A DNA stretch of 38,147 nucleotides from Akkermansiaceae bacterium (lineage in GTDB: Bacteria > Verrucomicrobiota > Verrucomicrobiia > Verrucomicrobiales > Akkermansiaceae), in the NCBI GenBank assembly GCA_013041925.1, contig JABDRB010000033.1, positions 1 through 38,147 on the forward strand, read 5' to 3'. Below the pieces are notes generated by a model that worked only from the letters and a program-made list of their open reading frames with translations, made no database searches and was not told the DNA's origin. The translations under genes were made by a program, and so were the position numbers. Positions within the stretch are counted from its first letter, which is position 1. Each line of letters starts with the position of its first letter. This document shows positions 1,824-30,524 of the stretch, piece by piece.

Positions 1824-3224
1824 TCACCTGAGCTCCAGACGTTTTTTGCGCAGCATTTCGAGCATGGATTGGACACGTGTTGGGTTTTCTGCGGCGCGGT
1901 TTATCCGTTCGCCGATATCTTGCTCGACGTTGAAGAGGAGTGGATGTTCCTCGCTGGCATTGAAGCCGTAATTTTTTCCGGTTTGGGATGGGATGGCGAC
2001 CATGAGTTTCCACGGGCCCTTGCGCACAGCGATGATGATATTTTTTGCATGGCTGTAATAGAACTCAAATTCAAGGGGTTTCGGGTTTGGATGATTGGGG
2101 AGGATGAGCGAGCGAATGTCACGACCGTCCAATATCGATGGGTCGGGGGATTGGGCACCTGTGAGGGCAAAAACGGTGGGCAGCACATCCAGGGTGCTGA
2201 CGGGGGTGAGTTCACGTTTTGCGTGGATGGTGCCTGGCCAGTAGAAGATCCCGGGCGTGCGATGGCCTCCTTCCCAGCATGACCCTTTGCCGTCGCGGAA
2301 TGGCAGGGCGTAGCCAACGTGCATGCGGGCTTCACCGTATTTACTTTTTGGGGTATCACGAAATCTGACCCATGGGCCGTTGTCGGAGGAAAAAATCACC
2401 AGGGTGTTGTGTTCAATCTGAGCTTCTTTGATGGCGGTGAGGATTTGCCCTACGGAGTCGTCTATTTCTGCCATGACGTCGCCGAGCAGGCCACGGCGGG
2501 ATTTCCCTTGATAGGCGTCGCTGACAAAGAGGCCGAGGTGGGGTTGGTTATGGGCCACATAGGCAAAGAACGGCCTGTGTTTATTTTTTTGGATGAATGC
2601 GATCGCGGCCTGGGTATAGCGACCGGTGAGTGAAGTGGATGCGGCCACATCGGACGGAAGGTTTTTGGCAACCTCCGAATAGCCGGCGATGGGATTGTTG
2701 CCGGTGGGGTCGGATTGGAGCAGCTTGGCTTGGCTGTAATCGTGGGAGACATTGGTGCCGATCCATGAATCGAAGCCATGGGCGACGGGTAAGGCATCGG
2801 GTGACATGTTGTTGCTTGGGTTGGGGTTACCTAGGTGCCATTTGCCAAACATGCCTGTGGCGTAGCCGCGTGATTTTAGCCCGTCGGCGAGGGTTGTTTC
2901 ATTTTTATTGAGGTGGGGTTTGGCGCTTGGTCCGATCACCCACTTACCAAATCCCGAGTGGGCTGGATAGCGGCCGGTCATCAGCGAGAACCTTGATGCG
3001 CTACACGCCGGTGAGGTGACATAAAATTGGGTGAAATGAATGCCCTTGTGCGCGAGTCGGTCAATGTGGGGCGTTTCAATCACGGGGTTCCCATTGTGGG
3101 AATAGTCGCCAAAGCCGCTATCATCGAGGTAGATCAAGACGATGTTTGGTCGGTCGGCGGCAGGCCTCGCGATGAGGGATGTGGCTGATACGAGTGCAAG
3201 AATGATCGCCCAACAAGGATTCAT
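1824..3224 (-). CDS. Secreted sulfatase (formylglycine-dependent, arylsulfatase family)
   Basis: Sulfatase of 466 residues that should hydrolyse a sulfate ester, probably on a polysaccharide or small organic sulfate in the periplasm or outside the cell. A signal peptide ends near residue 20-23. The first metal-binding strand is NIVLIYLDDSGFGD (Asp34, Asp35). The formylglycine site is CSASRFSLMTGRY with Cys74, so maturation needs a formylglycine-generating or anSME-type enzyme, not seen here. FGKWHLG and SSDNGPW supply the expected Lys/His and Asp/Asn active-site residues. Alanine replaces the commoner proline in the CxPSR core, which the family tolerates. The length is normal. The substrate cannot be told from the sequence. 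It is divergent from the NlpC/P60 gene at 3308 and is not adjacent to the second sulfatase of this window at 29187. Confidence 0.92.
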   Translation of the reverse strand: MNPCWAIILALVSATSLIARPAADRPNIVLIYLDDSGFGDYSHNGNPVIETPHIDRLAHKGIHFTQFYVTSPACSASRFSLMTGRYPAHSGFGKWVIGPSAKPHLNKNETTLADGLKSRGYATGMFGKWHLGNPNPSNNMSPDALPVAHGFDSWIGTNVSHDYSQAKLLQSDPTGNNPIAGYSEVAKNLPSDVAASTSLTGRYTQAAIAFIQKNKHRPFFAYVAHNQPHLGLFVSDAYQGKSRRGLLGDVMAEIDDSVGQILTAIKEAQIEHNTLVIFSSDNGPWVRFRDTPKSKYGEARMHVGYALPFRDGKGSCWEGGHRTPGIFYWPGTIHAKRELTPVSTLDVLPTVFALTGAQSPDPSILDGRDIRSLILPNHPNPKPLEFEFYYSHAKNIIIAVRKGPWKLMVAIPSQTGKNYGFNASEEHPLLFNVEQDIGERINRAAENPTRVQSMLEMLRKKRLELR

Positions 3225-3947: not shown

Positions 3948-3984
3948 GACATACAGATGACATAAAACTGAACGTTTGAGAGCC

Positions 3985-5367
3985 ATGCCTAAGGTATTTA
4001 TCAAGACATATGGATGACAGATGAACGAACGTGATTCTGAGCAGGTTGCTCGGATGTTTGTTGAGGGTGGTTATACCGTAACGACCAATGAAAGGGACGC
4101 TGATGCGATTCTTGTCAATACCTGTAGTGTCCGTGATCAGGCGGAGCAGAAGGCGTTGGGGAAGATGGGGATCATGGGGAAATACCGTGAGCAAAACCCA
4201 CATATTGTCTATGGCTACATGGGGTGTATGGCGCAGAGCCGGGGCAAGCAGCTGTTTAAAAACATCCCGCACCTCGATGTGGTGGTGGGCACGCAGAAAT
4301 ACCACAAGGTGTTTGAATACGTGGATAATATCCTGCGCAGGCGACTGGAAAAAAGGATGGATCATCCCGCGCTGTCGCTGAACCTTCATGGTGAGAGCGT
4401 CTGTGATACGGAAGAGGAAAAAGGGAGCCAAAATACGATCCGCGACCATGTTGCTCAGGAGAATCAAACGTCGGCCTTTGTATCCATCATGCAGGGGTGT
4501 AACATGCGTTGTTCGTTTTGTATTGTCCCCGATACCCGCGGAGCCGAGCGCGGCCGGCCTATTGCCGATATCGTCCAAGAAGTCGAGGGGCTCGTCGCGA
4601 AGGGGGTGAAGGAAGTCACCTTGCTGGGTCAGATCGTTAACCTCTACGGTCGGACTGAGTTTCCTCAAGTCGATGGCAAGTCGCCCTTTGTGCAGCTGCT
4701 TGAGGCGGTGCATGAGGTGGACGGGTTGAATCGGATCCGTTTCATCTCGCCGCACCCGATCGGATACCGTGCTGACTTGGTAAAAGCCTTCACCTACCTG
4801 CCGAAGTTATGCAGTCACATTCATTTTCCGATGCAGAGTGGCAGCGACTCGATTTTGCGTCAGATGCGCCGACCGTATAAACACGCGAAGTTTGTCGAGA
4901 TATGTCAAAACATGAAAGCGGCGCGTCCTGACCTTGCGATCACGACCGACATCATTGTCGGGTTTCCGGGTGAGACGGAAGAGGATTTTCAAGCGACCGT
5001 GGACACGGTGCGCGAGCTTGATTTTGATAATGCCTTTATCTTCCGCTACTCGAAACGCCGGAACACGCCCGCTGCCGAGATGGATGGGCAGCTGCCGGAG
5101 CGGGTGAAGGAAGAAAGAAACCAAATCTTACTCAAGGTGGTGAACGAACTCGCGGTGGCTAAAAATGCTCGCCTTGTCGGCACCCGCCAGCAGGTGTTAT
5201 GCACGGGGCCGTCGAGGACAAACCGAGATCGGCTGATGGGGCGCACCAGCCAGAATAAGATTGTTATTTTTGATGGTGATGCCGAGCGCATGACGGGCCA
5301 AATTTTTGATGTCCTGATTGAGGACACGACGGGCTTCTCGCTCTACGGCACGGCCGAGCTGAAATAA
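3985..5367 (+). CDS. miaB: tRNA (ms2i6A37) methylthiotransferase MiaB, probable selenoprotein with in-frame TGA at 4015
   Basis: Radical-SAM enzyme that adds a methylthio group to i6A37 of tRNAs reading UNN codons. From ATG 3985 the frame reads MPKVFIKTYG, TGA, then QMNERDSEQ and on for 448 codons, 460 residues in all if the TGA is decoded. MiaB proteins have YGCQMN here, so the TGA replaces the first cysteine ligand (position 11) of the auxiliary cluster. The other two ligands are present as NTCSVR (Cys47) and GYMGCMAQ (Cys81). The radical-SAM triad is GCNMRCSFC (Cys172, Cys176, Cys179), and a TRAM domain ends the protein. Starting at ATG 4021, as a standard caller would, loses the ligand and the first beta strand. 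A SECIS-like hairpin follows the TGA. Se insertion is inferred; a sequencing error (TGT or TGC to TGA) or a damaged gene is the alternative. The next gene starts 40 nt downstream. Confidence 0.85.
4015..4017 (+). other. In-frame TGA, probable selenocysteine codon
   Basis: This codon lies in frame between ATG 3985 and the long miaB frame, at the position of the invariant cysteine of the MiaB motif YGCQMN. TGA terminates several other genes here (for example 1517-1519 and 37494-37496), so a genome-wide code change is unlikely and decoding would have to be local. The flanking sequence is conserved-looking MiaB on both sides, which argues against random decay. Confidence 0.78.
4036..4054 (+). promoter_or_regulatory. 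SECIS-like stem-loop downstream of the miaB TGA
   Basis: UCUGAGC (4036-4042) pairs with GCUCGGA (4048-4054) as a continuous 7-bp stem including one U-G pair, closing the loop AGGUU (4043-4047). The loop begins 25 nt after the TGA; known bacterial SECIS elements place the apical loop roughly 16-37 nt after UGA and carry a G in the first loop positions. The tip GCAGGUUGC resembles that of E. coli fdhF (GCAGGUCUGC). The stem also encodes conserved MiaB residues (DSEQVAR), so part of the match could come from coding constraint. Confidence 0.65.
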
Positions 5368-29186: not shown

Positions 29187-30524
29187 ATGAAATTCACCCT
29201 TTGGATCCTCCTGTTTGCTACTTTCTGTGGGTCACTGACCGCCGCAGAGAAACCCCATTTCCTCATCATCTTCACCGATGACCAGGGGTATGGCGACCTA
29301 TCCGCCTACGGCAAAACCGACATCGTCACGCCCAATATGGACCGCATCGGCAAGGAGGGGATGTTATTTACTCAGATGCGAGCCAACTGCACCGTGTGCA
29401 CGCCATCAAGGGCTGCCTTGCTCACCGGCAAGTATGCGGATCGGGTCGGTGCCCCTGGTGTGATACGCACGGATCCGGATAGCTCATGGGGGTATCTCGA
29501 CCCGTCCGTTCCGACCTTGGCGGATGAACTCAAGAAGGTGGGGTATCACACCGCACTCGTCGGCAAATGGCACCTCGGGCTGGAGTCACCCAATATCCCG
29601 AATGACCGTGGCTTCGATTTTTTTCACGGCTTCCTCGGTGACATGATGAATGATTATTATCACTGCAAACGTGGAGGCATTCAATTTCTGCGCAAAAACA
29701 AAGAAGTGGTAGAGCCGACCAAGCATGCCACGGACATGTTCACTGATTGGGCGAATGCTTACCTCAAGGAGCGCAGTCAAAAGCCGGACGAGCCGTTTTT
29801 TTTGTATCTTGCCTACAATGCGCCTCACTTCCCCGTTCAGCCGCCGCAAGAGTGGGTGGAGAAAGTGCGTAAGCGGGAGCCTGAAATGAGCAAGGCTCGC
29901 GCACGAAGCGTGGCCTTTGTGGAGCATCTCGATGCAGCGATTGGTCGCGTGCTCGGTGCGCTTGATACCTATGGATTAGCCAACAATACCGTGGTTGTAT
30001 TCACCTCCGACAATGGGGGGTCGCTACGCCATCATCAAAATAATGACCCATGGCGTGGAGGGAAGCAGGACCACTATGATGGTGGGTTGAAAGTACCGTT
30101 TGCGATGCGCTGGCCAGGTGGCATTAAGGCAGGCACGACCAGCGATTATCAAGGGCTCGGCTTTGATATTTTTCCCACCTTTCTAGAAATCGCGGGTGCG
30201 CATGTGGATGAAGATTTGGATGGGGTCAGCTTGATGCCGGTTCTGAAAGGTGAAGCAATGAACGGATCACGGGAGCTGTATTTTGTCCGCCGTGAAGGCG
30301 GTGCAAAAGCTGGGAAGGCATACCAAGCCATCATTGCCGATGGTTGGAAGCTGATGCAGAATGATCCGTTCAGCCCGCTCGAGCTTTACCACATCAAGGA
30401 GGACCCACAGGAAACAAATAACCTCGTCTCAACGGAAAAAGAAAAGTTGAAACAATTGTCCGACCGCTTGCGTTATCATATCCAACGCGGTGGTTCCACT
30501 CCTTGGCAGAAACCATCACCGTGA
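29187..30524 (+). CDS. Secreted sulfatase (formylglycine-dependent)
   Basis: Sulfatase of 445 residues, exported by a signal peptide ending near AA-20. FTDDQGYGD supplies the metal aspartates (Asp31, Asp32). The formylglycine site CTPSRAALLTGKYADR has Cys71 and the classic CxPSR core. GKWHLG and TSDNGGS complete the active site. It is the first of four same-strand genes for exported proteins (to 37496), 81 nt before the next, suggesting that it works on the same substrate as its neighbours, perhaps a sulfated polysaccharide. The substrate cannot be assigned from sequence. It is only distantly similar to the other sulfatase (1824-3224). Confidence 0.92.
   Translation: MKFTLWILLFATFCGSLTAAEKPHFLIIFTDDQGYGDLSAYGKTDIVTPNMDRIGKEGMLFTQMRANCTVCTPSRAALLTGKYADRVGAPGVIRTDPDSSWGYLDPSVPTLADELKKVGYHTALVGKWHLGLESPNIPNDRGFDFFHGFLGDMMNDYYHCKRGGIQFLRKNKEVVEPTKHATDMFTDWANAYLKERSQKPDEPFFLYLAYNAPHFPVQPPQEWVEKVRKREPEMSKARARSVAFVEHLDAAIGRVLGALDTYGLANNTVVVFTSDNGGSLRHHQNNDPWRGGKQDHYDGGLKVPFAMRWPGGIKAGTTSDYQGLGFDIFPTFLEIAGAHVDEDLDGVSLMPVLKGEAMNGSRELYFVRREGGAKAGKAYQAIIADGWKLMQNDPFSPLELYHIKEDPQETNNLVSTEKEKLKQLSDRLRYHIQRGGSTPWQKPSP

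Follow-up and report, generated by a model that had tools for sequence, protein, structure and literature searches.

A UGA codon at the first auxiliary-cluster ligand of MiaB in Verrucomicrobiota, probably read as selenocysteine

The reading frame and its missing cysteine

The DNA examined here (38,147 nucleotides from an Akkermansiaceae bacterium; hereafter 'the window') raises a simple question: does a TGA, lying in-frame at the very codon where the tRNA methylthiotransferase MiaB should carry the first cysteine ligand of its auxiliary [4Fe-4S] cluster, end the gene or is it read through? We favour the latter and, with a probability of roughly 0.93, take the gene to encode a selenocysteine-containing MiaB ('Sec-MiaB'); incorporation is inferred, and no protein has been observed.

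Working along the forward strand, the frame opens at ATG 3985 (with the nearest in-frame stops upstream of it at 3958 and 3931), reads MPKVFIKTYG, meets the TGA at 4015–4017, then continues through QMNERDSEQ as a complete MiaB until the TAA at 5365–5367; a total of 460 residues when its one in-frame UGA is read through (3985–5367). With cysteine standing in for the TGA, the product reaches 449.4 bits with TIGR01574, above the cut-off of 355.3, and contains, in the expected order, the UPF0004 (methylthiotransferase N-terminal; residues 3–102, positions 3991–4290), Radical_SAM (residues 166–341, 4480–5007) and TRAM (residues 396–456, 5170–5352) domains; thus meeting both the family and the domain criterion for MiaB. 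RimO, the S12 methylthiotransferase, shares the same enzyme family and layout, but here the window protein reaches only 293.8 bits against TIGR01125, under the cut-off of 356.95. None of the 18 NCBIfam models matching the protein at E≤1e-5 names a selenoprotein.

The cysteines of the solved MiaB structure 7mjv align with window residues 11 (the TGA), 47 (4123–4125) and 81 (4225–4227), the three auxiliary-cluster ligands. Their spacing (X35 and X33) agrees with the CysX35-36CysX32-33Cys rule given for methylthiotransferases in the available part of PMC5352715, but the first codon is TGA rather than one for cysteine; selenocysteine at position 11, if so read, would be the functional equivalent of the first-ligand cysteine. 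The initial annotation had placed the TGA at exactly this ligand, and frame, family score and structural alignment all agree with it; likewise its statement that the other two ligands, like the radical-SAM triad, are intact, as we read cysteines at 47 and 81, and at 172, 176 and 179 of the CX3CX2C motif (4498–4521). It was also correct in warning that routine annotation would begin at 4021: the mechanical open reading frame finder starts at the ATG directly after the UGA (4021–4023), and returns a 448-residue MiaB without its first ligand.

Seven out of 21 probable genes, chosen by eye from the window, terminate in TGA, which therefore also acts as an ordinary stop here, just as previously claimed. 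The genome itself (3.28 Mb, 33 contigs, 98% complete) holds a single match to TIGR01574 at E≤0.001, of 442.7 bits and with one TGA inside; a second, intact miaB would have spoken for decay of this copy, and none was found by this search.

Our proposal for how such a protein is made and works is as follows. SelB, charged with Sec-tRNA-Sec, would bind a hairpin just downstream of the UGA, such that the codon at 4015–4017 is decoded as selenocysteine 11; Sec11, Cys47 and Cys81 would then hold three of the auxiliary cluster's irons, the direct Fe–Se ligation being inferred. Otherwise the enzyme should behave as MiaB does: one SAM methylating a sulfur at the auxiliary cluster and a second yielding the 5'-deoxyadenosyl radical, with the methylthio group passing to C2 of i6A37 in tRNAs (an activity that we again infer). 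This division of labour between two SAM molecules is that set out for methylthiotransferases in those sections of PMC10702137 open to us; the accessible text of PMC10002905 has the auxiliary cluster supplying the sulfur, with its repair required for sustained activity, and that of PMC5352715 represents an older view, in which external sulfur sits on the free iron. The most likely advantage of a selenolate ligand, by inference, is that it eases rebuilding of the sulfur-donor cluster or lessens oxidative damage. Saying this, there are no protein or tRNA data, and the actual incorporation of selenocysteine, its ligation to iron, the activity and the benefit all remain inferences.

Codon alternation and the selenium machinery

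The initial annotation suggested asking whether relatives carry TGA or cysteine at position 11. We searched 58 genomes, that of the window plus 57 relatives, in 55 of which the start of MiaB is readable (G016, G047 and G057 fall outside this set). Nineteen of these, the window's genome among them, have TGA as the codon and the other 36 have TGC or TGT, no further codon being found in any of the 55; with just these alternatives in play, the presence of TGA at the ligand codon is far beyond chance. Within the window's own genus, 11 of 13 relatives have TGA and two (G012 and G013) have cysteine.

All four components that the initial annotation wished to see in the same genome (selA, selB, selD and a tRNA-Sec) are present: SelA, SelB and SelD score 504.2, 324 and 370.5 bits, each above its own cut-off, and the tRNA-Sec 56.4 bits (gathering score 47), ARAGORN also reporting it as tRNA-SeC with anticodon tca (UCA). 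SelD is a known selenoprotein family, and the window genome's copy (G000:C21:73839-74765; locus L011, TGA at 1531) has one internal TGA, in the context SCAG-U-ASKL. Downstream of this TGA a hairpin is predicted, whose GUU loop lies at a distance of 33 nt, and the protein is probably a Sec-SelD. The apex of this hairpin, GCAGGUU, is identical to that of the MiaB hairpin from the same genome.

Across the relatives, the machinery tracks the codon. SelB exceeds its cut-off in 18/19 TGA genomes vs 14/36 cysteine genomes, SelA is found in 17/19 vs 13/36 (two below-cut-off pieces in G009 being taken as present), and one or other of the two genes in 19/19 vs 14/36 (Fisher p = 4.4e-6). For tRNA-Sec, counted under strict filters (with E≤1e-8 for the relatives), the association is weaker, with 14/19 vs 16/36 (p = 0.049). 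None of these tests controls for relatedness. The TGA genomes for which the search missed a part—selB in G003; selA in G006 and G010; tRNA-Sec in G004, G005, G007, G009 and G010—are fragmented, at 240 to 710 contigs, or 200 for G009. Two genomes, G042 and G049, have tRNA-Sec matches, but selA is unmatched in both and SelB does not reach its cut-off; we infer that these matches are probably serine tRNAs.

The anticodon of the window genome's tRNA-Sec is followed by AA, giving A36-A37-A38, the target of MiaA; a MiaA gene is also present. Sec-MiaB might, on this basis, modify tRNA-Sec, in which case selenocysteine decoding and tRNA modification would be joined in a feedback loop. The wider idea to which this belongs, of a selenolate that directly ligates an Fe-S cluster consumed and rebuilt in use, and thereby renders the methylthio mark on UNN-reading tRNAs selenium-dependent, is one that we put forward only tentatively and think unlikely to hold in full. 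The same applies to a selenium switch operating on top of selenocysteine insertion, with full-length Sec-MiaB made when selenium is available and a short or inactive product when it is not, so that ms2i6A reports the selenium supply: the single MiaB found in the genome, the ATG three nucleotides past the UGA and the A36-A37-A38 of tRNA-Sec, in the company of MiaA, would all suit such a device, but there are no expression data and every selenoprotein is trivially selenium-dependent, leaving the switch a doubtful addition.

Conservation on either side of the UGA

That ATG also provides the one argument for treating the UGA as a plain stop, with a working protein made from 4021 without its first ligand, and the upstream frame reduced to a leader or reinitiation device. 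The ten codons before the UGA (3985–4014) speak against this. Over the nine that follow the start codon, pS is 0.749 and pN 0.023, a ratio of 0.031 (43 distinct sequences from 78 loci; four outlying loci, L091, L097, L103 and L112, left out); variation that is almost wholly synonymous, as predicted for a stretch used as protein, and which argues against a start at ATG 4021. Moreover, a MiaB lacking the first ligand is expected, by inference, to be inactive, and TGA is accompanied by a hairpin mostly lost from the cysteine alleles. A plain stop is consequently very improbable.

This SECIS-like hairpin occupies positions 4036–4054, with an 8-bp stem (4036–4043 paired with 4047–4054) and a GGU loop (4044–4046) located 26 nt after the UGA. 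The bacterial SECIS model, as given in the portion of PMC13188914 available, calls for a loop of 3–9 nt with G in one of its first two places, a stem of 4–16 bp, a distance of 16–37 nt from the UGA and an energy of at most -7.5 kcal/mol; the window hairpin, at -16.7 kcal/mol, meets it throughout. At least seven of the eight stem pairs form in all 51 distinct TGA alleles vs 3/36 cysteine alleles (the same four loci again left out; 6, 6, 4 and 2 pairs among them), whilst synonymous shuffles drawn from each gene's own codon usage would lead us to expect the hairpin in only 1.17 of the 51. The stem codons of these alleles are correspondingly restricted: GAG and CAG in 51/51, GTT in 46/51 and GCT in 43/51, vs 282/1711 valine codons (GTT) and 236/1118 alanine codons (GCT) elsewhere in the same genes. 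Pairing of the stem stands at 95.6% in register vs 21.8–44.9% with the partner strand slid by 1–3 nt, and the pair at offsets 23 and 37 from the T of TGA varies in identity (U-A in 19, U-G in 14, C-G in 14, broken in 4).

It is the specific helix alone that separates TGA from cysteine alleles. Neither minimum free energy nor its z-score over synonymous shuffles does so (mean z of -1.35 for 55 TGA alleles and -1.63 for 36 cysteine alleles), and we have rejected folding energy as a test for SECIS elements; the strict SECIS model applied to minimum-free-energy structures passes 40/51 TGA but also 8/36 cysteine alleles, a result that counts against the assignment. The three cysteine alleles that retain 7/8 pairs (L030, L047 and L065) come from genomes that keep both selA and selB (G026, G012 and G028, respectively) and, because hairpin and machinery persist together, we infer that they are probably recent changes from selenocysteine to cysteine. 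The conserved hairpin, which did not feature in the initial annotation, adds independent support to the predicted selenocysteine reading.

The same hairpin, in fitting the published SECIS model, counts against the UGA being read as some other residue (such as cysteine or tryptophan) through a suppressor tRNA or an altered genetic code, as do the presence of SelA, SelB and tRNA-Sec and the ordinary genes of the window that end in TGA; and whilst cysteine in all 36 remaining alleles would be in keeping with such a reading, we give it even less credence than a plain stop.

Distribution, descent and known relatives

To the genomes considered above we can add a scan of 84,980 species in genome_contigs, for which the motif was written as an exact degenerate pattern; diverged forms will have been missed, and records of the window's genome or a very near one may be absent. 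It returned 65 loci; at 59 of them the gene is a MiaB of the Verrucomicrobiota type and carries the TGA, under titles that include Akkermansiaceae, Roseibacillus, Rubritalea, Verrucomicrobiales and similar. In 54 of the 59 the downstream NTC and CX3CX2C motifs are visible; the other five end before that point in the stored stretch. The bacteria that appear to make Sec-MiaB are a group of Verrucomicrobiota, many from marine samples; the TGA form occurs in numerous Akkermansiaceae and their close relatives, and extends to another family of the order in at least one genome (G053). Isolates account for two of the loci: Rubritalea marina DSM 17716, whose sequence preserves the tryptic peptide TYG-U-QMNER, and R. 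profundi SAORIC-165. Each has selA and a tRNA-Sec match.

As the same TGA recurs across numerous separate assemblies, cultured isolates being the source of two, a read error is very unlikely; and the least tenable of the alternatives, a sequencing error or decaying gene, for which two genes from MAGs not belonging to the group (L097 and L112, which have the TGA but neither the hairpin nor, in their genomes, selA) offer a precedent, is in practice refuted by these 59 loci from independent assemblies, and by an otherwise intact frame in the only MiaB found in the window genome.

As for those two genes themselves, they are MiaB frames with TGA from a Hyphomicrobiales MAG (L097; 2/8 hairpin pairs) and a Terriglobus MAG (L112; 4/8); lacking both hairpin and any selA match, we take them as errors or broken copies and not as Sec-MiaB. 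L097 cannot be fully excluded, since its genome has a tRNA-Sec match, albeit just above the gathering score (48.9 vs 47 bits); the genome of L112 shows no such match. The pattern scan also returned L130 and L135, apparently by chance, and neither L144 (G299, one TGA) nor L145 (G241, one TAA) is a TGA allele, as the ligand codon is TGC in both.

In a quick phylogeny of 94 MiaB proteins, 58 with Sec and 36 with Cys, built with the codon masked, the Sec/Cys label has to change nine times, at least seven of these changes being forced by well-supported branches; shuffled labels need 29 on average. The tree was reduced from 108 loci by omitting identical rows and those with fewer than 300 residues after the codon; L091, L097, L103, L112, L130 and L135 are also left out. 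It does not allow gain to be distinguished from loss. A survey of the phylum covered 383 genomes, of which 356 gave a match at E≤1e-100; it details only the best of these and so provides no count of TGA alleles. Taking the tree together with the codon alternation, the hairpin, the upstream constraint and the co-occurrence of selA and selB, we consider insertion of selenocysteine by the SelB/SECIS route to be very likely, though predicted from sequence; the initial annotation, which had inferred insertion without the hairpin or the machinery to hand, is on this point supported.

Sec-MiaB would therefore be a known enzyme with a selenocysteine ligand. It shares with MiaB (TIGR01574; 7mjv–7mjz) its domains, two other auxiliary ligands, radical-SAM triad and a score above cut-off, and differs in having a UGA and SECIS-like hairpin in place of the first cysteine codon. 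As a selenoprotein family we could not find it in print: neither MiaB nor methylthio appears in the table of 119 prokaryotic families and subfamilies, or among the main-text terms, of a 2026 review (PMC13188914, available in part), in line with the earlier remark that this is no standard selenoprotein family. The same terms are absent from the main text, supplements aside, of what was accessible of PMC9312934, PMC2398784 and PMC4807772, and Sec-MiaB from the titles and abstract openings of the openly licensed papers returned by literature searches; a report elsewhere is possible. Amongst the selenoproteins listed in the accessible part of PMC13188914, TIGR04167 and TrsS (NF045646) are likewise selenocysteine-containing radical SAM proteins but belong to different families, neither being among the 18 models that match the window protein. 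Metal-bound selenocysteine is described there for [NiFeSe] hydrogenases (Ni) and formate dehydrogenase (Mo or W), and selenocysteine in an Fe-S protein for HdrA; these however serve redox reactions of energy metabolism, whereas the supposed ligand in MiaB is part of a cluster from which the sulfur for modifying tRNA is drawn.

A gene of this kind is easily overlooked, its codon having the appearance of a stop. The natural Sec/Cys pairs, some within a genus, mean that the role of selenium in an Fe-S cluster could be addressed by simple exchange, and Sec-MiaB is open to test in the two cultured Rubritalea strains that carry the gene.

Several minor observations were made along the way. Two minus-strand loci from Elusimicrobia MAGs, L103 (2771 bases) and L091 (987 bases), each contain a short fragment from the 5' end of miaB in which the ligand codon is likewise TGA, and which breaks off after about 12–20 codons into unrelated sequence; about 330 nt downstream in L103 there is an intact miaB of the Cys type, and the foreign stretch of L091 encodes what we take, by eye, to resemble a phage-antirepressor-like (Bro-N) protein. 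A mobile element has perhaps inserted near the start of miaB in both; no selA was found in either genome. TIGR01574 reveals no second methylthiotransferase in the window genome, and many same-genus relatives show a second match near 240–280 bits. The one example examined among relatives (L076, from G049) is RimO-like, and its flagged stop was dismissed, the cysteine being present in its SLGCAKN motif; the window's genus may have lost RimO. Finally, two proteins encoded elsewhere in the window, at 1824–3224 (minus strand) and 29187–30524 (plus strand), resemble secreted sulfatases by eye.
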